Source: Chryseobacterium sp. GVT01B (GTDB lineage Bacteria > Bacteroidota > Bacteroidia > Flavobacteriales > Weeksellaceae). From it: 64,000 nt of DNA. The notes under the pieces were generated by a model. That model ran no database searches. It worked only from the letters and a program-made list of their open reading frames with translations, and was not told the DNA's origin. Shown piece after piece: positions 45,888-55,234 of this stretch. Each line of letters opens with the position of its first letter. The first letter of the stretch is position 1. The stretch is taken from the NCBI RefSeq assembly GCF_019970045.1, contig NZ_JAHXYI010000004.1:1-64000 (forward strand), given 5' to 3'. Made by a program: the position numbers and the translations under genes.

Positions 45888-46193
45888 ATGGACAACAATC
45901 AAAATCCACAAGACGGAAACATCAACATCGAATTAAACGAAATGGTAGCTGCTGGTATCTATGCTAACCTAGCTTTAGTAAACCACTCTCCATCTGAATT
46001 TGTAGTAGACTTTATTCAGTTGATGCCAGGTGTTCAGCAAGCTAAAGTAAGATCAAGAGTTATTCTTGCTCCACTTCACGCTAAAAGAGTATTAAACGCT
46101 CTTCAACAGAACATCGCTAACTACGAGCAGCAGTTCGGAGAAATCAAAGAAGTTGAGCCTTTCGTATTAGGAGGAAACAACGTTCAAGCGTAA
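45888..46193 (+). CDS. DUF3467 protein
   Basis: The 101-residue protein matches the DUF3467 family pattern (ANLALVNHSPSEFVVDF, then MPGVQQAKVRSRVILAP and HAKRVLNALQQNI). The fold is small and has no signal peptide. Its function is not established. Its position directly after rpoC, with a terminator behind it, suggests cotranscription with RNA polymerase subunits. Confidence 0.9.
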   Translation: MDNNQNPQDGNINIELNEMVAAGIYANLALVNHSPSEFVVDFIQLMPGVQQAKVRSRVILAPLHAKRVLNALQQNIANYEQQFGEIKEVEPFVLGGNNVQA

Positions 46194-46218
46194 GATTTCT
46201 TTTTACAATAAAATAAAA

Positions 46219-46248
46219 ATGCCCTGGTTTTTAACCGGGGTGTTTTTT
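46219..46248 (+). terminator. Terminator of the rpoBC unit
   Basis: GCCCTGGTT and AACCGGGGT pair through G-C, G-T and A-T pairs and are followed by TGTTTTTTG. Confidence 0.75.
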
Positions 46249-46343
46249 GTGCTAATTCTAACTTAGAAAATAGTATAGAACTTATGTAATTGTTAATTTT
46301 CTTTAATAACATAAAAATATATAATAACCATTCATCAATTTTA

Positions 46344-46351
46344 TATCTTTG
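46344..46351 (+). promoter_or_regulatory. -7 box of the Crp/Fnr gene
   Basis: TATCTTTG matches TAnnTTTG, 27 bases before the ATG. No clear TTTG lies 19-20 bases upstream. Confidence 0.6.
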
Positions 46352-46378
46352 TTTGAGAAAAAGTAGAAAATATAGGAT

Positions 46379-47029
46379 ATGGTTGATAACGCATTCGCTG
46401 TAAGTAAATTTGGCTTTTTAGGAGCCGATTTTTTATCTGAGCTGGAAAAGCATGCTGTTGCAGTTGATATAAAAGCAAAAACTGAAATCATAAGAGAAGG
46501 GCAGAAAAATAAGTTTGTCCCTTTCCTTATAAAAGGCTCTATCAAGGTTTTTACCCTTAATGATGGAAGAGAACTGATCTACTACTATATTAAGCCTAAA
46601 GATAGCTGCCTTATGACCTTTTCATCTATTCTGACTGATTATATCAGCAGGGTGTATGCTATTGCTGAAGAAGACTCGGAAGCTATTCTTATTCCCGTTT
46701 CTGTAATGCATGATTGGCTGATAAAATTCCCGGAAATCAATAAACTGTTTTATCATGAATATGACCGCAGATTCTCAGAAGTGATGAATATGGTAAATGA
46801 TGCAGTGTTCCACAGGCTGGATAAAAGAGTCCTGAATTACATCAAACAGCAGATTTCATCCACAGGAAACAATCCTATTAAGATCACCCATCGTGAAATT
46901 GCCAACAGTTTGGGAACTTCCAGAGAAGTGGTGAGCAGAGTTTTGAAAAAAATTGAAAGCGAAGGTGAAATTATTCAAACTAAAGAAGGAATGAAAGTTC
47001 CTGTAAATGAAAATGTTAGAATAATCTAA
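46379..47029 (+). CDS. Crp/Fnr-family transcriptional regulator
   Basis: The 216-residue regulator has an N-terminal cyclic-nucleotide-binding-like beta roll (about residues 20-120: IIREGQKNKFVPFLIKGSIKVFTL). A C-terminal winged helix carries the HTH THREIANSLGTSREVVSRVLKKIE. No Cys cluster of the oxygen-sensing Fnr type is seen (the beta roll has a single Cys, in DSCLM), and the residues that contact cAMP in Crp are not evident. The signal is therefore unknown. Five genes for envelope proteins follow on the same strand after a 125-base gap, and the regulator may control them. Confidence 0.88.
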   Translation: MVDNAFAVSKFGFLGADFLSELEKHAVAVDIKAKTEIIREGQKNKFVPFLIKGSIKVFTLNDGRELIYYYIKPKDSCLMTFSSILTDYISRVYAIAEEDSEAILIPVSVMHDWLIKFPEINKLFYHEYDRRFSEVMNMVNDAVFHRLDKRVLNYIKQQISSTGNNPIKITHREIANSLGTSREVVSRVLKKIESEGEIIQTKEGMKVPVNENVRII

Positions 47030-47154
47030 TTCTAATTGTTTGAAAAGCTTATTTCTATCATTGATAAAAACAATTTGGCTGGTGACTTTTATCACCTGTT
47101 TTTGAATTGAGAACTCAATAAGTTTGTTATATCATAATTTAATTCAAATTGTAT

Positions 47155-47997
47155 ATGACGAAAACTCTCTTATTTTTGTCAATATTTTCTTCAGGTCTTG
47201 TCTTTGCACAGGAAGATCTGCTGAAAGATATTGACACGGTGAAAACCAACACAGAAACTTCACAACCCGCCTTTAAAGCACTTCAGATTGTCACGGGACA
47301 ATCCACAAAACTTGCTGCCAAAAAAGAATGGTACATTATCGTTGCTCACAGATTTGGGGACATAAGCGCAGGATTTAAAGACTTTTTCGGTCTGGATCAT
47401 GCCTCTACCAAATTAGGTGTTATCTATGGTATTTCAGATGCAGTATCCGTAAGCCTTTCCAGAGAAACGAATATGAAGACGTTTGAAGGAGCCGTGAAAT
47501 ACAGACTGGTAAGACAAAATGAAAACTTCCCGGTGGATATTGTGGGATACAATGTAATGGGGGCTAATACTGAGCTGGATAAAGATACCTATCCACACCT
47601 TAAATTCAGTGACAGGCTTTCTTATCTTACACAGGCATTAATTTCAAGAAGGTTCAATGATAAGCTTTCATTACAGCTTACTCCATCCTTTGTTCATAAA
47701 AACCTTTACGAACCTACCATTGAAAACAAAAATCAGTTTTTGGCAGGTTTGGGAGGGCGCTACAAAATTTCCAAAAGAGTTTCTGTGAATGCAGAATACT
47801 TTGTGAATTTCGACGATCACAGTTTTTATAAAAACCCACTGTCTTTGGGGGTGGATATAGAAACCGGAGGACATGTGTTCCAGCTTTTATTGACGAACTC
47901 CCAGATAAATTCAGATATCGGATATCTTACCAATGCTACAGGAGCATGGGGGAAAGGACATATTTTCTTTGGGTTTAATCTTTATAGAGTTTTTTAA
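47155..47997 (+). CDS. DUF5777-like outer membrane beta-barrel protein
   Basis: The product of about 280 residues starts MTKTLLFLSIFSSGLVFAQ (signal peptide; the TTG two codons earlier was rejected). It consists of alternating amphipathic beta strands, for example VSVSLSRETNMKTFEGAVKYRL and FNDKLSLQLTPSFVHKN. It ends in an aromatic strand, GHIFFGFNLYRVF, as outer membrane barrels do. The pattern fits the DUF5777 barrel family, which has no established role. The cytochrome gene starts one base after its stop codon. Confidence 0.8.
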   Translation: MTKTLLFLSIFSSGLVFAQEDLLKDIDTVKTNTETSQPAFKALQIVTGQSTKLAAKKEWYIIVAHRFGDISAGFKDFFGLDHASTKLGVIYGISDAVSVSLSRETNMKTFEGAVKYRLVRQNENFPVDIVGYNVMGANTELDKDTYPHLKFSDRLSYLTQALISRRFNDKLSLQLTPSFVHKNLYEPTIENKNQFLAGLGGRYKISKRVSVNAEYFVNFDDHSFYKNPLSLGVDIETGGHVFQLLLTNSQINSDIGYLTNATGAWGKGHIFFGFNLYRVF

Positions 47998-47998
47998 T

Positions 47999-48346
47999 AT
48001 GAAAAAGCTAACATCCTTATTGATAGTGTCGTCAGTAATCATACTGACGGCGTGTGACAGCAGAACTTATGAAGAGATTTCTGATAATACACCAATCACA
48101 GTACCTGTAAAATATACAGCAGATGTAAAACCCATTGTGGATAACAATTGCATTGGCTGTCATTCTGCCAGTGGCTATAAACCTCTCGTTACTTATGATC
48201 AGGTAAAAGACAACATAGACGGAATTCTGGACCGTATCCAAAGACCCAATGGTGATCCGGAGAAAATGCCTAAGGGAGGATCATTGTCCGCAGCTCAGAT
48301 CAATGTTTTCATAAAGTGGAAAGCTGACGGGCTCAATGAAAATTAA
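47999..48346 (+). CDS. c-type cytochrome lipoprotein
   Basis: The product is about 115 residues. MKKLTSLLIVSSVIILTAC gives a lipoprotein signal with lipidated C19. The covalent heme site CIGCH lies at 51-55 and a possible axial ligand M90 is in EKMPKGG. The small size and single heme fit a membrane-tethered electron-transfer protein or a cytochrome-like domain. An in-frame ATG 22 codons upstream would overlap the barrel gene and destroy the lipobox, so the start at 47999 was chosen. It ends 10 bases before the YceI start. Confidence 0.88.
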   Translation: MKKLTSLLIVSSVIILTACDSRTYEEISDNTPITVPVKYTADVKPIVDNNCIGCHSASGYKPLVTYDQVKDNIDGILDRIQRPNGDPEKMPKGGSLSAAQINVFIKWKADGLNEN

Positions 48347-48356
48347 AAAAAATGAT

Positions 48357-48902
48357 ATGAAAAAATTAGCATTATTAAGCGTATTACTGCTTTCTGCCAG
48401 TTACGCTTCAGCACAAAAATACAGTTCTAAGACAGGAAAAGTAACTTTTGAAGCCTCGGTTCCTCTGTTTGATGACATCTTTGCCCAGGATGACAATAAT
48501 GTTGTTATTCTGAACGCGGATAATGGTGAAATGGCATCCGTTTCAACCGTTAAAAACTTTCATTTTAAAACCAAATTAATGGAGGAGCATTTCAATGAGA
48601 GTTATGCTGAATCTGCAAAATACCCGAAAACAACTTTCAAAGGGAAAATTGTCAACTTTGATAAAACAAAACTTACGGCCAGTCCTCAGAAATATACCGT
48701 TCAGGGAACGCTTAACTTTCATGGTGTAGACAAAGCGGTTGCTTCTTCAGCCACATTATATGCAAAAGATGGTAAAATCTATATGCAGGGTGGTTTTGTG
48801 GCTAAACCTGCAGATTATAAAGTGACTATCCCTAAAATGGTTACCAAAAAAGTGGCAGAAAATGTCAACATCGAATACAATTACGTAATGGTAAAACAAT
48901 GA
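48357..48902 (+). CDS. YceI-family lipid-binding protein
   Basis: YceI proteins have a lipocalin-like barrel that binds isoprenoids such as polyprenols or quinone-like molecules in known structures. The 181-residue product has a signal peptide ending ASYASA, then KYSSKTGKVTFEASVP. It contains the family strands AKYPKTTFKGKIVNF, YTVQGTLNFHGVDK and ADYKVTIPKMV. An in-frame ATG at 48336 overlaps the cytochrome gene and is less likely. The stop overlaps the next ATG by four bases. An isoprenoid or quinone ligand next to a cytochrome would fit electron transfer, but this is inference. Confidence 0.88.
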   Translation: MKKLALLSVLLLSASYASAQKYSSKTGKVTFEASVPLFDDIFAQDDNNVVILNADNGEMASVSTVKNFHFKTKLMEEHFNESYAESAKYPKTTFKGKIVNFDKTKLTASPQKYTVQGTLNFHGVDKAVASSATLYAKDGKIYMQGGFVAKPADYKVTIPKMVTKKVAENVNIEYNYVMVKQ

Positions 48903-49423
48903 GAAATCTAATCTTAATTTTAGGACTATTTCTGAGCTCATTGATATTTGCTCAGGAAAAGGCAAAATCAATATTTGATATTGCCAGAAGCGGAACAGTT
49001 CCTGAAGTACAGGAGCTGATGAAACAAAATTCGGATATTATTAATCAGGTGAATGAAAACGGATTCTCTCCCCTTATTTTAGCTTGTTACAGAGGAAATA
49101 TCCCTGTTGCAGAATTTTTAATTACTCACGTTAAAAATATGAATTACGCAAGTGGAGAAGGAACAGCTTTAACGGCTTCTGTTTTTAAAGGAGATAAAAA
49201 TCTTACTCAGAAATTATTAGCGAACAAAGCTGATCCCAATGTGGCAAACAGCAGTGGAGTAACACCATTGATATATGCTGTTCAGTCACAAAACAAAGAA
49301 ATGGTAGAACTGCTGCTAAAGAATAAAGCAAATAAGACATTATCAGATAAACAAGGGAAAACTGTTTTTGAGTATGCATTATTTACTAAAAATCAAGACA
49401 TTATTAACTTATTAAAAAATTGA
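48899..49423 (+). CDS. Exported ankyrin-repeat protein
   Basis: The 174-residue protein has a signal peptide ending LIFAQ and four to five ankyrin repeats. Clear units are NGFSPLILACYRGNIPVAEF, SGVTPLIYAVQSQNKEMVEL and a final GKTVFEYALFTKNQDIINLL. Ankyrin repeats mediate protein binding, and here they would do so in the periplasm. The ATGA overlap with the YceI gene indicates coupled translation. Confidence 0.88.
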   Translation: MRNLILILGLFLSSLIFAQEKAKSIFDIARSGTVPEVQELMKQNSDIINQVNENGFSPLILACYRGNIPVAEFLITHVKNMNYASGEGTALTASVFKGDKNLTQKLLANKADPNVANSSGVTPLIYAVQSQNKEMVELLLKNKANKTLSDKQGKTVFEYALFTKNQDIINLLKN

Positions 49424-49427
49424 CCAT

Positions 49428-50207
49428 ATGAAATTAAAAACTACATTATTATTGATCGGATTTTTTGCTTTTTTTCATGTAAAAAGTCAATATTCGACAG
49501 GAACTGTACCTCTTTTTTCCACACCGGGAGGAGCAGATTTGGCTTATTCAGTTAAGATTGACCTTACCCCTTCTTTAGTTACCCTTACCCTTGTCGGGCC
49601 TTCTACGGGATGGCTGGGAATGGCTTTCAATACAACGAATATGGATGATATAGGGAAAGACGTTGTAATTTTTGATGGAACTAATTTAAGTGACAGAACA
49701 TTTAATGGACAAGGAGTGGTTCCGCCTTTGGATGGAACTCAAAACTGGACTGTAACATCTAATACAGTGGCAGGAAGTGTTCGTACCGTAATCGCTACAA
49801 GAGCTTTAAACACAGGAGATGCTAATGATTATGTTTTTACTGTTCCTCCTGCAGGCCCTTTAAACATTACCTATGGACGTAGATTGTCGAATTTTACGAT
49901 TGGTTATCACGGTTCTAACAGCTGTGGTACTACATCCCTGAGTTTTGGTACTTTAGGTACTAAAGAAACAGCTTCCGAAAGTAAGAAAATGGTTCTTTAT
50001 CCAAACCCGGCGAAAGAAACGGTGAGCTTTAAAAATGCAGATAAAATAAAATCTGTTGATATTTATGAATCTGCCGGAAGAAAAGTAAGATCTGTAAAGC
50101 TTGAGGGAGAAAATATCAGTGTCAGAGATTTAAAATCCGGTACTTATTATTTCGAAATCACTTTAAAAGATGGAACTACATCTTACGAAAAACTGATTAA
50201 AGAATAA
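49428..50207 (+). CDS. DOMON-like T9SS-secreted protein
   Basis: The 259-residue protein has a signal peptide ending HVKSQ. A beta-rich domain (about 20-165) follows with LVGPSTGWLGMAFN, KDVVIFDGTNLSDRTF and NITYGRRLSNF, resembling DOMON domains, which bind heme or sugars in characterised proteins. Residues about 185-259 (VLYPNPAKETVSF to YEKLIKE) are a T9SS type A sorting domain, so it should reach the cell surface. It is last in the five-gene run. A possible heme function fits the neighbouring cytochrome but is not proved. Confidence 0.78.
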   Translation: MKLKTTLLLIGFFAFFHVKSQYSTGTVPLFSTPGGADLAYSVKIDLTPSLVTLTLVGPSTGWLGMAFNTTNMDDIGKDVVIFDGTNLSDRTFNGQGVVPPLDGTQNWTVTSNTVAGSVRTVIATRALNTGDANDYVFTVPPAGPLNITYGRRLSNFTIGYHGSNSCGTTSLSFGTLGTKETASESKKMVLYPNPAKETVSFKNADKIKSVDIYESAGRKVRSVKLEGENISVRDLKSGTYYFEITLKDGTTSYEKLIKE

Positions 50208-50243
50208 TTTTCAGAAAAAACACACCTAAATAATTAGTAATGC

Positions 50244-50277
50244 ATACCCCTGATTTTTCAGGGGTATCATTTTTTCT
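50244..50277 (+). terminator. Terminator after the DOMON-like gene
   Basis: ATACCCCTGA and TCAGGGGTAT form a perfect stem around TTTT and are followed by CATTTTTTC. Confidence 0.85.
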
Positions 50278-50313
50278 TAAGTCCCAATTTCAGGGAGGTT
50301 GCTTTAAAATTCA

Positions 50314-50321
50314 TATATTTG
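50314..50321 (+). promoter_or_regulatory. -7 box of the two-domain acetyltransferase gene
   Basis: TATATTTG matches the consensus 58 bases before the ATG. No well-spaced -33 element is evident. Confidence 0.55.
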
Positions 50322-50379
50322 TGTAGATACGGATTTTTAATAAAAGGCCATCTCTTAGCCTTATAATTTTTTACGACCA

Positions 50380-51225
50380 ATGGAATTTAAAACCTTAGCC
50401 CATATCACAACAGATGAACTTTTATCGGTATTCAATCATTCATTTTCTGACTATGTTGTTCCTTTTCACTTAACGAAAGAAGTACTTGTTTCAAAAATTG
50501 CAGCTGAAAAACTAGATATGAATTTATCCGCCGGAGCATTTGAAGACGGAAAGCTGGTTGGTTTTATTCTACAGTCTGAAAAAGTTGAAAATGGAGAAAA
50601 AATAATCTACAACGGAGGAACAGGAGTCGTTCCGGAAAGCAGAGGTAAAGGATTGGTGAGAAAAATGTATGATTTTATTATTCCTGTTTTAAAGGAAAGA
50701 AATACCAATACATTACTGCTTGAAGTTATTGAAGGAAATCAGCCTGCTATCAGGGCATATGAAAATTTAGGCTTTAGTATTGTCCGAAGATTGCTTTGCT
50801 TTAACGGTAGCATTAAGCAGGGAAAAGATAATGCTGAGGTTTCTATTAAGGATTTGAATGACTTTCAATGGGAAAAATTACGTTCTTTCTGGGATATCGA
50901 ACCTTCATGGCAGGGATCTGTTTTCGTATTGGAGCCTATGCCTGAGAAATATGTGACTTTAGGTGCTTATATTGATGAGAAGCTTGTTGGGTATATTGTT
51001 TATGGTCCTGCAGCGAAAAAAATCTACCAGTTTGCTGTAGATAAAGGTTTCAGAAATCAGGGAATAGGAACGACGCTTTTTAATGCCATTTCGAAAAAAA
51101 ATGGAGGGCAGGCTATTGCATTGAACAATGTAGATGATTCTTCGGAAAACACCAGTAAATTTCTTAGCGAAAGAGCAGGACTGAACAATTGGCTGTCACA
51201 GTTTGAAATGAAAAGACCTATTTAA
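50380..51225 (+). CDS. Tandem GNAT acetyltransferase
   Basis: GNAT enzymes move an acetyl group from acetyl-CoA to an amine. The 281-residue protein holds two GNAT domains. The first has the acetyl-CoA loop VPESRGKGLVRKMYDF near residue 87. The second has AVDKGFRNQGIGTTLFNA near residue 225. Both keep the R-x-x-G-x-G/A pattern. The substrate cannot be inferred. It is transcribed alone from its own promoter. Confidence 0.85.
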   Translation: MEFKTLAHITTDELLSVFNHSFSDYVVPFHLTKEVLVSKIAAEKLDMNLSAGAFEDGKLVGFILQSEKVENGEKIIYNGGTGVVPESRGKGLVRKMYDFIIPVLKERNTNTLLLEVIEGNQPAIRAYENLGFSIVRRLLCFNGSIKQGKDNAEVSIKDLNDFQWEKLRSFWDIEPSWQGSVFVLEPMPEKYVTLGAYIDEKLVGYIVYGPAAKKIYQFAVDKGFRNQGIGTTLFNAISKKNGGQAIALNNVDDSSENTSKFLSERAGLNNWLSQFEMKRPI

Positions 51226-51309
51226 TGAGTTTTAATTTTGATTCAAAAAAAATAATCGCTTTTAATATACTTTTAATCTCTTAAACTTTTCAGGCAGAAG
51301 TATAGGATG

Positions 51310-51317
51310 TAACTTTG
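51310..51317 (+). promoter_or_regulatory. -7 box of the phosphodiesterase gene
   Basis: TAACTTTG lies 18 bases before the ATG and matches TAnnTTTG. Confidence 0.6.
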
Positions 51318-51334
51318 CAGAAAATTTTTAAATA

Positions 51335-52618
51335 ATGAAGCGAGGAATCCATTTTTTACTACTGTTAATTTCCTTTACGGCTTTTGCACAACAGGTAAAT
51401 ATTGATACAGCCCAGGTGGTGATCCCGGGTAGACAAAACAGTACAGAGGCACAGTCTAAACCTTACGTGATTATGATATCTACAGACGGTTTCCGTTATG
51501 ACTATGCTCAGAAATACAATGCTGAAAATCTTTTGAAACTGGCTAATGGCGGTGTAAAAGCTGAAGCCATGATTCCAAGCTATCCAAGTATTACTTTCCC
51601 AAACCACTGGAGCTTAATCACCGGACTTTATCCATCCCATCATGGCTTGATTGATAACTTTTTCTATGATTACAAGAGAAAAGAAGGCTATGCAATGAGC
51701 AGTAAAAAAAATGCTGAGGACGGGAGCTGGTATGGAGGAACTCCACTTTGGGGACTTGCCGAAAAACAGGGAATGGTATCGGCTTCTTTAATGTGGGTAG
51801 GATCTGCCAGTGATGCAGGAGGAATGAGACCTACTTATTATTATCCTTATCATGAAAAATTCACACCTTCAGAAAAAGTAGGAAAAGTAGTGAACTGGCT
51901 GAAGTTACCGGAAGATAAAAGACCTCACTTTATTTCATTATATTTCCCGGAAGTAGATGGAAGCGGACATCATTATGGTCCGGACGCCAAAGAAACAGAA
52001 ACGGCTGTTCATCTGATAGACCAGGCGATTGGTGACCTTGCTCAGAAAGTAAATGAATTAGGATTAAAAAATGTTAACTTTATTTTTGTTTCCGACCACG
52101 GCATGATTAAAGTCGATGGCGGTACACCATTGGAAATTCCGGCTGTGCTTTTTGATAAAAACAGATTTGATTTTTACAATTCTCAAACCCTGTTAAGAGT
52201 TTACGTTAAAAATCCGGATGAGGTAAAAGCAGTTTATAAAGAATTGAAAGCCAGTAAAACAGACGATTACGAAGTATATCTGGATAAAAAGCTTCCCAAA
52301 TACCTGCATTTTGCAACAAGAGATGACAGATACAACAGGATCGGTCAGATTCTTCTGATTCCGAAAGCACCAAAGATTTTCTTGGAAAAAGGTAAAAAGA
52401 CGTCGGTTGGAAAACATGGTTACAACCCTAAAGTTGTTCCGGAAATGAAAGCGACTTTCTTTGCCTGGGGACCTGAATTTAAAAATAATTTGACAATCGG
52501 AGAATTTGCCAATATCAATGTTTATCCTTTGGTTGCTGAAGTTTTAGGATTAAAAATTGATCAGCCTATTGATGGAAAACTGAAAGTTTTAAAAGAAACA
52601 TTGAAAGAGAAAAAATAA
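51335..52618 (+). CDS. Ectonucleotide pyrophosphatase/phosphodiesterase-like enzyme
   Basis: The 427-residue exported enzyme has a signal peptide ending FAQQ and the alkaline-phosphatase-superfamily metal site of the NPP group. D51 is in ISTDGFR, the nucleophile is T87 in PSYPSITFPNHWS, and Asp/His residues lie in FPEVDGSGHHYG, FVSDHGM and GKHGYNP. NPP enzymes hydrolyse phosphodiester or pyrophosphate bonds of nucleotides or lipids using two zinc ions, usually in the periplasm in bacteria. The gene is monocistronic, with a promoter in front and a perfect terminator behind. Confidence 0.9.
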   Translation: MKRGIHFLLLLISFTAFAQQVNIDTAQVVIPGRQNSTEAQSKPYVIMISTDGFRYDYAQKYNAENLLKLANGGVKAEAMIPSYPSITFPNHWSLITGLYPSHHGLIDNFFYDYKRKEGYAMSSKKNAEDGSWYGGTPLWGLAEKQGMVSASLMWVGSASDAGGMRPTYYYPYHEKFTPSEKVGKVVNWLKLPEDKRPHFISLYFPEVDGSGHHYGPDAKETETAVHLIDQAIGDLAQKVNELGLKNVNFIFVSDHGMIKVDGGTPLEIPAVLFDKNRFDFYNSQTLLRVYVKNPDEVKAVYKELKASKTDDYEVYLDKKLPKYLHFATRDDRYNRIGQILLIPKAPKIFLEKGKKTSVGKHGYNPKVVPEMKATFFAWGPEFKNNLTIGEFANINVYPLVAEVLGLKIDQPIDGKLKVLKETLKEKK

Positions 52619-52648
52619 TCTGAGGATTAAAAAATAAAAATTAAAACT

Positions 52649-52688
52649 AGTTTCGGCGCACCAAAGGTGCGCCGAAACTGGTTTTTAT
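52649..52688 (+). terminator. Terminator after the phosphodiesterase gene
   Basis: AGTTTCGGCGCACC and GGTGCGCCGAAACT form a perfect 14-base-pair stem with loop AAA, then GGTTTTTATT. Confidence 0.9.
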
Positions 52689-52738
52689 TATTGACTTAGC
52701 ATTTCCAGTCTTGAACTTTTGTTTCAAGACAAAAGAAA

Positions 52739-53617
52739 TTAAAACTGAGAAGAAAACTCTTTCGCAAAATCTTCCAATTTAACATTTCCTGTAACAGGAG
52801 AACCATGATCAATAAAATCCTTTTGAACAACACCCGTTCTTATTCCTCTTCCCATTTCAACATACAACTTAGCCATATCTTCAGGTAATCCCGCCTGAAG
52901 CATTCCGTTTAAAGAATCTTCATCAGAAAATTCTACCCATGGAAGTTCAGGCTTATTAACAGAAGTACCTAAAACTTTTGCAAAATCGGAAGCTGTTCGT
53001 ACATCACTTACAATATATCTGATGTTGTTGGTATTTTCTTTTTTTACCAATTCTTCAGCTGCGGCTTTGGCAATATCAGTAGGATGTACTACAGGAACTT
53101 CGATATTTGCAGGATAATTACCACCAATGATTCCTGCATTTTGAATCAAAGGGATATCGTTGAAAAAGTTATTATAAAAATATCCGGCTCTTAAAAAAGT
53201 AAAAGAAGTGTTCTCTACTTCATTATATATTTTTTCAATATTGTGGAGACCTGCGATTGGGCCGTTTTCTACAGGAGATTCTGCTCCAACACTGCTTAGC
53301 ATTACAGCTCTTTTTACGTTAGCATTTTTTAAAGCTTCAGCATAATTTTTTCCTGCATTGGTTGTGTTTTCCACAATCTTATCCGGGCTGATAGCTGGAG
53401 GTGTCATTACAAAAACAGCGTCCGCACCTTCAAATGTATGAGCCAAAAAGTTAACATCCGTGATAGAACCTATTGCTGGAGTTGCTCCCAGAGATTCAAT
53501 ATCCTGCTTTCTTGCATCGCTGCTGCTTACTACGGTAATAGTATGTCCTTCAGAAATTAATTGTTGTGCTAGTGGTTTAGCTACATTTCCTAATGATCCT
53601 GTGATTACGATTTTCAT
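52739..53617 (-). CDS. NmrA-like NAD(P)-binding oxidoreductase
   Basis: The 292-residue protein starts MKIVITGSLGNVAKPLAQ, a Rossmann nucleotide-binding motif of the atypical short-chain dehydrogenase / NmrA type. It continues with VFVMTPPAI and KRAVMLSSVGAES, as in quinone-reductase-like QorB relatives. The classical YxxxK catalytic pair is not obvious. It is transcribed divergently from an HxlR-type regulator, a common pairing in which the regulator represses a reductase gene and responds to electrophiles or quinones. A longer frame to 53713 runs into the regulator's promoter and was rejected. Confidence 0.85.
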   Translation of the reverse strand: MKIVITGSLGNVAKPLAQQLISEGHTITVVSSSDARKQDIESLGATPAIGSITDVNFLAHTFEGADAVFVMTPPAISPDKIVENTTNAGKNYAEALKNANVKRAVMLSSVGAESPVENGPIAGLHNIEKIYNEVENTSFTFLRAGYFYNNFFNDIPLIQNAGIIGGNYPANIEVPVVHPTDIAKAAAEELVKKENTNNIRYIVSDVRTASDFAKVLGTSVNKPELPWVEFSDEDSLNGMLQAGLPEDMAKLYVEMGRGIRTGVVQKDFIDHGSPVTGNVKLEDFAKEFSSQF

Positions 53618-53650
53618 ATGTAAATATTTTTTTATTTCTGAGAACAAAGT

Positions 53651-53658
53651 TATATTTG
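53651..53658 (+). promoter_or_regulatory. -7 box of the HxlR-type gene
   Basis: TATATTTG lies 42 bases before the regulator ATG and overlaps the inverted repeat at 53656-53679. Confidence 0.6.
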
Positions 53659-53679
53659 TACTTACTTTTATACAAGTAC
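53656..53679. promoter_or_regulatory. Inverted-repeat operator candidate
   Basis: TTGTA and TACAA are separated by ten bases (53656-53675). GTACTT at 53658-53663 and AAGTAC at 53674-53679 form an overlapping pair. The element sits between two divergent genes and overlaps the regulator's own promoter, as expected for an autoregulated HxlR-type repressor site. Confidence 0.55.
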
Positions 53680-53699
53680 TTACCCTAAAGTATGTAGAT

Positions 53700-54128
53700 A
53701 TGACAGCAATCAAAGAAAGTTCAACTATTCAGGAAAACAGAAAGACGGTACAGGATTGTCCCGTAATGTACGTTATGGAAAGAATTGGAGGATTCTGGAA
53801 ACCTATTATTCTTTTTAATCTTTCCACAGGCGAAAAAAGATACAGCGAATTGAAAAAAGCAATTCCTGCCGTAACGGAAAAAATGCTCATTCAGCATCTG
53901 AAACAGTTGGAAACAGACGGATTAATTATCAGAACAGCAAAACCTGTAGTACCTCCTCATGTCACCTATAAGTTGAGTGATGCAGGTAATGAGCTGGCTC
54001 CCGTTATTGATGCAATGGCTGCATGGGCTTTTCAGGATATGGAAAGAAATGATATCAAATGTGCTGAAGGAAACAGATTTATACCAAATCAGGCTCAGAA
54101 TACATTTAGCCAAAATCTTAAAAAATAA
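53700..54128 (+). CDS. HxlR-family transcriptional regulator
   Basis: The 142-residue protein has the HxlR winged helix with CPVMYVMERIGGFWKPIIL at residues 20-38, then RYSELKKAIPAVTEKMLIQ and HVTYKLSDAGNEL. C20 aligns with the conserved Cys that senses electrophiles or diamide in the YodB/HypR members of the family. The preferred start is the ATG at 53700, because the frame upstream lies on the divergent gene. It likely controls the neighbouring NmrA-like gene. A small hairpin follows. Confidence 0.9.
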   Translation: MTAIKESSTIQENRKTVQDCPVMYVMERIGGFWKPIILFNLSTGEKRYSELKKAIPAVTEKMLIQHLKQLETDGLIIRTAKPVVPPHVTYKLSDAGNELAPVIDAMAAWAFQDMERNDIKCAEGNRFIPNQAQNTFSQNLKK

Positions 54129-54132
54129 AAAC

Positions 54133-54159
54133 ATGCGCTTCAATCCGAAGCGCATATTT
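54133..54159. terminator. Terminator between the HxlR gene and the alcohol dehydrogenase gene
   Basis: ATGCGCTTC and GAAGCGCAT form a nine-base-pair stem with AT-rich flanks between convergent genes. Confidence 0.7.
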
Positions 54160-54181
54160 TCGTTACTATTCTCCAGAAGAA

Positions 54182-55234
54182 TTATAAAGACTGCATATCA
54201 ATGACGAAACGGTATCTTACGTCACTTTTCAACATTCTTTCATAAGCTTCGTTGATGTCCTGCATTTTGATCATTTCAATTTCTGAAACAATATTATGCT
54301 CTCCGCAGAAATCTAATAATTCCTGAGTTTCTGCAATACCTCCAATTACGGAACCTGCTACAGATTTTCTTCCCATAATCATCGGAACAGTATTAAGGAT
54401 AGGTTCCAAACCTCCCAGATATCCTACAAGAACATGAGTTCCATTGATATTTAAAGTTGCCACATAAGGATTTACATCATGTACGTAAGGAACCGTATCA
54501 ATAATCACATCAAATTTTCCTTTTACAGACTCCATTTGTGCTTCATCCGTAGAGATAACAACATGATCAGCACCCAGTTGTTTTGCATCATCAGTTTTTC
54601 CGGGAGTTCTTGAAAATAAAGTAACTTCAGCACCCAATCCTTTTGCCAGTTTAATCGCCATATGGCCTAAACCGCCCAGTCCTACAACCGCTACTTTAGA
54701 GCCGGGACCTACATTCCAGTGCTTTAAAGGAGACCATGTTGTAATACCTGCACAAAGAAGTGGTGCTACTGCTGCAAGATCAAGATTTTCAGGTACTTTT
54801 AAAACATGGTGAGAATCCACAACTACTTTTTGAGAATATCCTCCAAAAGTATGACCTCCCAAATGCTTGTCTTTTCCATTATAAGTTCCTGTGAAGCCGT
54901 TTAAACAATACTGCTCAAGATCGTGCTGGCAGCTGTCACAATGTCCACATGAATCTACGATACATCCAACCCCTGCAAGATCACCTACTTTAAATTTGGA
55001 AACTTCGCTTCCTACTTTGGTAATTCTCCCGACAATTTCATGTCCCGGAACTACAGGATACAAAGATCCGCCCCAGTCATTTCTTGCCGTGTGAAGGTCA
55101 GAGTGGCATACCCCGCAATATAGGATTTCAATCTCTACATCCTTTGAGGTTACTTCTCTTCTTTCAATATTCATTTCTTTCAGGTCTGCTGTGGTAGACT
55201 CTGCACCATAAGCTTTTACTGTGATTGTACTCAT
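54182..55234 (-). CDS. Zinc-dependent NAD(P) alcohol dehydrogenase
   Basis: The 350-residue medium-chain dehydrogenase has catalytic zinc ligands C40 in CGVCHSD and H65 with E66 in PGHEIVG. Structural zinc ligands are C96, C99, C102 and C110. The Rossmann motif is GLGGLGHMAIKLA, followed by TLFSRTPGK, where Ser-Arg at the end of the second strand suggests NADPH preference. It resembles the YahK / cinnamyl-alcohol-dehydrogenase group that reduces aldehydes. It is divergent from an AraC-type gene, its probable regulator. Confidence 0.9.
   Translation of the reverse strand: MSTITVKAYGAESTTADLKEMNIERREVTSKDVEIEILYCGVCHSDLHTARNDWGGSLYPVVPGHEIVGRITKVGSEVSKFKVGDLAGVGCIVDSCGHCDSCQHDLEQYCLNGFTGTYNGKDKHLGGHTFGGYSQKVVVDSHHVLKVPENLDLAAVAPLLCAGITTWSPLKHWNVGPGSKVAVVGLGGLGHMAIKLAKGLGAEVTLFSRTPGKTDDAKQLGADHVVISTDEAQMESVKGKFDVIIDTVPYVHDVNPYVATLNINGTHVLVGYLGGLEPILNTVPMIMGRKSVAGSVIGGIAETQELLDFCGEHNIVSEIEMIKMQDINEAYERMLKSDVRYRFVIDMQSL

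Follow-up and report, generated by a model that had tools for sequence, protein, structure and literature searches.

Introduction

Among described systems, those closest to the locus analysed here include Cyc2, the fused monoheme cytochrome–porin of iron oxidisers (PMC8406198), the lipocalin BcnA of Burkholderia, for which mutants have increased peroxidation of membrane lipids, as have mutants of LcoA, the cytochrome b561 encoded beside it (PMC9113575), and the ankyrin protein Cj1386 of C. jejuni, which is reported to function in heme trafficking to catalase (PMC4518328). A YceI lipocalin of Neisseria was purified with ubiquinone-8 bound (PMC9113575). Our subject is a set of six genes at positions 46379–50207 of a 64,000-nucleotide stretch of Chryseobacterium sp. 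GVT01B (contig NZ_JAHXYI010000004.1), here called the window. They encode a Crp/Fnr-type regulator, an outer-membrane barrel of family DUF5777, a monoheme cytochrome c lipoprotein, a YceI protein, an exported ankyrin-repeat protein and a DOMON protein with the sorting tail of the type IX secretion system (T9SS). From sequence comparison and structure models, we put at about 0.5 the probability that these genes specify a redox relay across the outer membrane, to or from a secreted DOMON cytochrome b.

As in Cyc2, a one-heme c-type cytochrome is paired with an outer-membrane barrel (PMC8406198), and in three distant genomes (loci L292, L326 and L327) the two are fused with the cytochrome first, which is the Cyc2 arrangement. 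The barrel has 12 predicted strands, whereas that of Cyc2 has 16; cytochrome and barrel are separate genes in the window and are fused only in those three loci; and YceI and T9SS partners are present here. The motif AXPXFAR[Q/K][T/Y] that precedes CXXCH in Cyc2 is absent from all 143 open reading frames (ORFs) matched by our cytochrome model, that of the window among them, and likewise from the set that holds the fusions. By analogy, the module may work like a Cyc2-type porin-cytochrome, yet it is not a Cyc2. With MtrCAB and MtoAB the locus shares the overall logic of barrel, cytochrome and outer redox protein, but those systems have 26-stranded barrels and decaheme cytochromes (PMC8406198) in place of the 12 strands and single heme found here. 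The LcoA–BcnA pair likewise has a YceI-type protein genetically tied to a cytochrome (PMC9113575). There the cytochrome is a b561 and here it is a cytochrome c, to which a barrel and a T9SS protein are added; Pfam scans of the six genes and six flanking genes (45888–55234, rpoC left out) contain no cytochrome b561.

Searches of open PMC found no paper on DUF5777, none joining a DOMON domain with type IX secretion and none joining cupredoxin, type IX secretion and electron transfer. For YceI, DOMON and Bacteroidetes, no paper on the gene set is among the matches listed, judged by title and the start of the abstract. A search on YceI, cytochrome and Flavobacterium operon gave a single match, unrelated as judged from its listing, and YceI features in none of the matches listed for outer-membrane electron transfer or porin-cytochrome in Bacteroidetes.

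A conserved core of barrel, cytochrome c and YceI

Of the genomes sampled, 96 of 148 in the order and 98 of 247 in the phylum have a match to DUF5777. We compared 141 barrel loci, namely 60 from the order sample, the best 80 of 590 confirmed stretches and the window. The 60 were chosen by hand: every matched relative from the family of the window (17) was taken, together with 43 others, and weak partial matches were left out. Apart from the OB and copper models, which come from the 80-locus set, the models used for counting were trained mainly on these 60 loci; for the cytochrome and YceI counts, the 80-locus set and the loci from outside the order are the fairer test. Counts of cytochrome, YceI and ankyrin at the 141 loci come from a six-frame recount.

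An earlier sequence-only reading of this DNA had made its case depend on conserved linkage of these genes in related genomes, and such linkage is what we find. Within 4 kb of the barrel, a cytochrome is encoded in 136 of the 141 loci, YceI in 134 and both in 130. One of the five loci that lack the cytochrome (L154) is a 3.3 kb contig with the barrel near its end. The cytochrome model recognizes 137 of the 827 ORFs that lie at most three genes from a barrel, and the YceI model 130, while none of the 449 ORFs at least six genes away matches either. The linkage of the core genes is not due to chance. Outside the order, a cytochrome lies within six genes of the barrel in 16 of 20 loci (one of them incomplete) and YceI in 15. 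The order and strand of the core genes differ from locus to locus, so selection rather than inheritance alone seems to hold the set together. A 130-residue tRNA_anti-like (OB-like) protein, assigned through a Pfam match of one member, is a fourth partner in 81 of the 141 loci and is not present in the window.

The cytochrome scores at best 18.3 bits in Pfam, under the curated cut-off of 27. We nevertheless retain the assignment because the heme motif and the distal methionine are invariant: the lipid-anchor cysteine, Cys51, Cys54, His55 and Met90 are identical in all 34 aligned cytochromes, which are a subset of 51 references plus that of the window. A CX2-4CH motif is present in each of the 143 cytochrome-model ORFs near barrels and is followed by a later MP or MS in 133. 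The window protein contains CIGCH once and hence a single c-type heme motif, and a ResB-family cytochrome c maturation protein is encoded in the same genome. The YceI assignment rests on a Pfam match of 43.1 bits (cut-off 23.7); a phmmer search of the Protein Data Bank (PDB) at E 0.01 found no solved relative.

The barrel matches DUF5777 (PF19089) over positions 1–247 of 247 with 291.1 bits (cut-off 23.1, E 7.7e-87). Its model has a predicted local distance difference test score (pLDDT) of 87.6 and consists of 12 strands, with mostly short turns on the side of the termini and longer loops on the opposite side. The best matches among solved folds are FapF (Z 18.6) and KdgM (Z 17.9). These show that the protein is a 12-stranded outer-membrane barrel but no more than that. 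At the sequence level, the only PDB match to the barrel was a designed barrel, at E 0.13. His65 and His240 of the barrel are invariant and His181 is nearly so; in their strands all three take up positions of the hydrophobic register, which gives no support to the invariant histidines lining the lumen. A second DUF5777 match in the same genome (L096:5930–6865, contig C2) was set aside as a BBP2 porin, for which its Pfam score is 334.6 bits against 25.7 for DUF5777. By eye, this porin adjoins genes that resemble the Kdp potassium system.

Fusions and extended clusters

In each fusion protein, a monoheme cytochrome c domain makes up the N-terminal part and a DUF5777 barrel the C-terminal part. 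The three come from a different class of the phylum and belong to two families (f39 and f58); perhaps they share one origin. In L292 the cytochrome part was recognized by eye from its CX4CH and MP motifs. An apparent fourth fusion, in L275, was dropped on account of ambiguous bases at the junction. In L072 (3619–11592), a barrel paralogue and a cytochrome stand beside a hexaheme cytochrome c, a protein of the EB_dh family, another cytochrome c, a 4Fe–4S protein and NrfD. This cluster would read as a chain that starts at the quinol pool and ends at the outer membrane. Two further clusters, in L091 and L331, resemble it by eye.

These arrangements bear on the main rival to a relay, in which the locus would be an envelope antioxidant system. 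A periplasmic YceI lipocalin with an isoprenoid antioxidant would help to quench lipid peroxyl radicals, the cytochrome c would be its redox partner in place of the b561 of Burkholderia LcoA–BcnA, and the barrel and surface proteins would help to exchange or remove oxidized lipids. The frequency of YceI in the loci agrees with this, as do the peroxidation phenotype of BcnA and LcoA mutants and the ubiquinone-8 in the Neisseria lipocalin (PMC9113575), and a tie of the ankyrin family to catalase in the window's own genome (described below). By itself it accounts neither for the cytochrome–barrel fusions nor for a T9SS-tailed DOMON protein and its replacement by a blue-copper protein, and six loci keep cytochrome and barrel without YceI, among them L072 with its 4Fe–4S and NrfD pair. 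We regard it as the strongest of the alternatives to the relay, though an unlikely one, and the two could overlap.

The DOMON protein and its ankyrin partner

The last protein of the locus scores 26.3 bits against the Pfam DOMON model, under the cut-off of 32.7, and its assignment is upheld by its fold. The model (pLDDT 80.7 overall, about 90 across the domain) matches the cytochrome domain of cellobiose dehydrogenase (PDB entry 1d7b) with Z 12.8 and a root-mean-square deviation of 2.7 over 140 residues. It also matches dopamine β-hydroxylase (Z 13.6) and chains of ethylbenzene dehydrogenase (Z 11.1) and nitrite oxidoreductase (Z 10.8). The latter two chains bind heme b. The dopamine β-hydroxylase domain is not known to hold heme, so the fold alone is no proof of heme binding. 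Searched by sequence with the DOMON alignment, the PDB yielded solved sorting tails but no cytochrome.

The residues at the expected axial positions are strongly conserved: Met72 is kept in 54 of the 55 DOMON proteins found in our loci and His161 in all 55. In the exception (L125) another methionine is seen by eye close by. We consider Met72 and His161 candidate axial ligands of a heme b, an assignment made from fold and spacing rather than from residue-by-residue superposition. Cellobiose dehydrogenase, ethylbenzene dehydrogenase and nitrite oxidoreductase resemble the window protein in fold (Z 10.8 to 12.8) and in the spacing of a Met/His pair; in cellobiose dehydrogenase, M65 is named in the title of the cytochrome-domain entry 1pl3 and the paired histidine is His163. 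Identity to these proteins is only 10–16%, and the window protein is a stand-alone T9SS cargo rather than a domain or subunit of a dehydrogenase.

All 55 DOMON proteins carry a T9SS tail. That of the window scores 40.7 bits in Pfam (cut-off 27) and 40.4 bits for TIGR04183 (cut-off 23), and its model matches solved T9SS sorting domains with Z up to 10.9. SprA of the T9SS is encoded in the same genome (SprA_N, E 1.5e-153).

The occurrence of the ankyrin protein (Pfam E 6.6e-25) tracks that of the DOMON protein. It is present in 55 of 55 DOMON loci, in 54 of them within five genes and in L169 as the next gene out, and in none of the 86 barrel loci that lack a DOMON protein. The pair is kept in several positions, namely downstream of YceI, before the OB-like gene, between that gene and the barrel, following the barrel, or on the opposite strand. 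In L198, L200 and L208 the 3.5 kb retrieved contain the pair and no barrel. Searching 148 genomes separately gave 27 DOMON domains, distributed over 26 genomes, 25 of which also contain the barrel; an ankyrin protein lies in the 1.5 kb flank of 23 of the 27 domains.

An exported paralogue of the ankyrin protein in the same genome (32% identity to that of the window) begins 5 nucleotides after an exported catalase (Pfam Catalase 583 bits; L095:5788–7838, contig C35). Thirty retrieved homologues of this paralogue divide into 22 beside a DOMON protein, two beside a catalase and six beside neither, and genome G133 encodes a short ankyrin protein with no evident signal peptide beside a catalase. 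Cj1386 is likewise a small ankyrin protein encoded beside a heme protein (PMC4518328), while the window protein is exported and paired with DOMON, its paralogue being the catalase-paired one. Given the catalase-linked ankyrin proteins and the reported role of Cj1386, heme delivery would be the likeliest role for the ankyrin protein by analogy.

A blue-copper protein in the place of the DOMON unit

In seven loci (L071, L074, L168, L170, L174, L186 and L194), a T9SS-tailed protein of the plastocyanin/azurin family adjoins the barrel. Two that were scanned score 37.9 and 36.1 bits in Pfam (cut-off 21.2), the His, Cys, His and Met residues are kept in all seven, and none of the seven loci contains a DOMON or ankyrin protein. 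Such an exchange of heme for copper, without the ankyrin protein, fits an electron carrier rather than a heme scavenger, the seven loci being few and partly related.

The same exchange speaks against heme or iron handling, in which the secreted DOMON protein would bind heme, the ankyrin protein would act as chaperone for the heme, and uptake would go through the barrel. The strict pairing of ankyrin and DOMON would suit this function, as would FecI/FecR-like genes and an 844-residue TonB-type receptor seen by eye upstream of the core in a number of Flavobacterium loci, among them L137, which in addition encodes a secreted-repeat lipoprotein (PF03640). The barrel, however, is small and 12-stranded with porin-like matches and is not a TonB-dependent receptor, and the constant partner is a cytochrome c. 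We judge heme or iron handling to be distinctly improbable.

T9SS-tailed proteins are frequent near the barrel, which could then be an outer-membrane anchor or export helper for the adjacent T9SS cargo, with the redox parts incidental. Against this, 79 of the 141 core loci have neither a DOMON nor a copper protein within five genes, the cargo tail is of the ordinary type A, and the constant neighbours are the cytochrome and YceI. There is very little to recommend an anchor or helper.

LTD-like T9SS-tailed proteins also stand beside the barrel, in L159 (5218–5970), L163 (5251–5970) and L169 (5170–5925). The Pfam LTD score in L159 is 23.6 bits, which is below the cut-off, and L163 has no LTD match. 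DUF2271 was rejected as a further surface partner, with one weak sub-cut-off match among seven proteins.

Regulator and palindrome

The SREXXXR helix of CRP is kept in the regulator (SREVVSR against SRETVGR). The residues of this helix in CRP read GTGA. The CRP equivalog NF008732 gives 52.9 bits, far under its cut-off of 266, so the protein is a member of the superfamily only. In our sample the regulator is limited to the kin of the window. A gap of 125 nucleotides separates its gene from the barrel gene and contains a palindrome. Among the 18 Crp-linked loci of the 60-locus set, the palindrome core is GTGACTTTTATCAC in 13 and GTGACTTTAGTCAC in four. GTGA-N6-TCAC is found in 17 of these loci, against a mean of 0.034 in single-letter shuffles of the same regions. 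Of the 141 loci, 39 have an adjacent Crp gene, and the pattern lies within 260 nucleotides 5′ of the barrel in 37 of them and in one of the remaining 102. Judging from the sequences, the palindrome is probably a Crp-type site upstream of the barrel operon. No wider Crp regulon is seen: genome-wide, GTGAYTTTWRTCAC has two exact matches and 19 at up to one mismatch (the two included), against 17 for the reversed control. The second exact match is beside a gene that by eye resembles glycine-cleavage genes.

The palindrome might instead be a mere terminator of the Crp gene, the regulator having no control over the operon. The hairpin with its T-run does score as terminator-like, and in L046–L048 the palindrome follows directly 3′ of the Crp gene with a long T-run. 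Yet among Chryseobacterium relatives the core is kept together with its loop while the outer arms and the T-run vary, and the half-sites and their spacing suit a recognition helix of the CRP type. A terminator without a regulatory role thus appears unlikely to us.

Table 1. Features of the locus in the window and of three cytochrome–barrel fusions. Positions of the fusions are those of the respective locus.
Feature	Sequence	Position	Strand	Basis
Crp/Fnr-type regulator, 216 residues	Window	46379..47029	+	Pfam/profile scans; recognition helix SREVVSR vs CRP SRETVGR
Palindrome GGTGACTTTTATCACC, probable Crp-type site 5′ of the barrel operon; could form a weak Crp-gene terminator	Window	47081..47096	+	
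DUF5777 outer-membrane barrel, 280 residues, signal peptide, 12 predicted strands	Window	47155..47997	+	Pfam and structure model
Monoheme cytochrome c lipoprotein, 115 residues; lipobox Cys19, CIGCH 51–55, Met90	Window	47999..48346	+	
Heme c attachment motif CIGCH	Window	48149..48163	+	
YceI-family protein, 181 residues, signal peptide	Window	48357..48902	+	Pfam
Exported ankyrin-repeat protein, 174 residues; candidate heme-delivery partner of the DOMON protein	Window	48899..49423	+	
T9SS-tailed DOMON protein, 259 residues; candidate surface cytochrome b, axial Met72 and His161	Window	49428..50207	+	
DOMON domain, residues 22–177	Window	49491..49958	+	Structure comparison
T9SS type A sorting domain, residues 186–259	Window	49983..50204	+	Profile and structure match
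Intrinsic-terminator-like hairpin (50244–50267) and T-run, 3′ of the last gene	Window	50244..50275	+	Consensus scan
Cytochrome–barrel fusion	L326	3911–5137		Cytochrome model E 2e-9, barrel E 2.7e-43
Cytochrome–barrel fusion	L327	155–1378		Cytochrome model E 8.8e-6, barrel E 3.9e-44
Cytochrome–barrel fusion	L292	6272–7507		Barrel E 9.1e-38; cytochrome part by eye

All six genes lie at the place and on the strand given by the sequence-only reading and have the products that it named (Table 1). Its description of a Crp-linked operon holds from the barrel onward, where the successive spacings are 1, 10, −4 and 4 nucleotides. With 125 nucleotides and the palindrome in between, the Crp gene may be a transcription unit of its own, apart from the five-gene operon. 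A gene named by eye as rpoC, and then a DUF3467 gene, stand 5′ of the Crp gene. The barrel shares 98% identity with its counterpart in Chryseobacterium sp. S0630.

Discussion

In the relay that we favour, the lipoprotein cytochrome would dock at the periplasmic mouth of the barrel, as has been proposed for the cytochrome domain of Cyc2, and would exchange electrons with the periplasmic cytochrome c pool. Electrons would then pass through the barrel to or from the DOMON cytochrome b on the surface, directly or via a small soluble mediator. YceI might supply or shield an isoprenoid redox cofactor or lipid, the ankyrin protein would load heme onto the DOMON protein before its export by the T9SS, and the local Crp protein may switch the operon through GGTGACTTTTATCACC. 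Electron flow may run in either direction.

Envelope electron transfer reaching the surface had been proposed from the sequence, and it is still the best reading because the core genes are linked, the heme ligands of the two candidate heme proteins are conserved, the DOMON protein ends in a T9SS tail, and in some genomes a protein of the blue-copper kind stands in for it. Support for it is partial, and a number of observations weigh on the other side. One periplasmic and one surface heme cannot span the membrane without a further carrier or a plug in the barrel, and a relay leaves unexplained the position of the most conserved barrel histidines in the hydrophobic register. YceI, present in nearly every locus, is better known for binding lipids or isoprenoids. 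The later MP or MS methionine is lacking in ten of the 143 cytochrome-model ORFs, including those beside the barrel in L072 and L091. On the surface side, the 79 core loci with neither a DOMON nor a copper protein count here as well, and 71 of the 96 barrel-bearing genomes of the order sample have no such DOMON protein anywhere. Moreover, the DOMON loci are not all independent, since 39 of the 55 belong to the Crp-linked group of the window's kin, which leaves 16 others, and four of the 27 DOMON domains have no ankyrin protein in the fetched flank, one of these being at a contig end. The slot beside the barrel is also not exclusively redox, since in some loci it holds T9SS proteins of unclear kind (LTD-like or weakly DUF2271-like).

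The genes had moreover been taken as one fixed set, and this view has to be given up. The locus consists of three layers, with a conserved core, an interchangeable surface unit of ankyrin and DOMON proteins, and a Crp regulator specific to the window's kin.

More tentatively, and with the odds somewhat against it, DUF5777 and YceI, with a monoheme cytochrome c that is fused to the barrel or encoded separately, may form a minimal conduit for electrons in the outer membrane, of an undescribed class that extends across the phylum Bacteroidota. Such a conduit would feed or drain interchangeable surface redox proteins delivered by the T9SS, either a heme b DOMON protein with a heme-loading ankyrin protein or a blue-copper protein. 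If this is correct, electrons would cross the outer membrane of Bacteroidota by a widespread one-heme route, and electron carriers would be delivered to the cell surface by the T9SS. We know of no general answer to how heme is loaded onto exported b-type cytochromes, and the ankyrin–DOMON pair would offer a directly testable system for this step.

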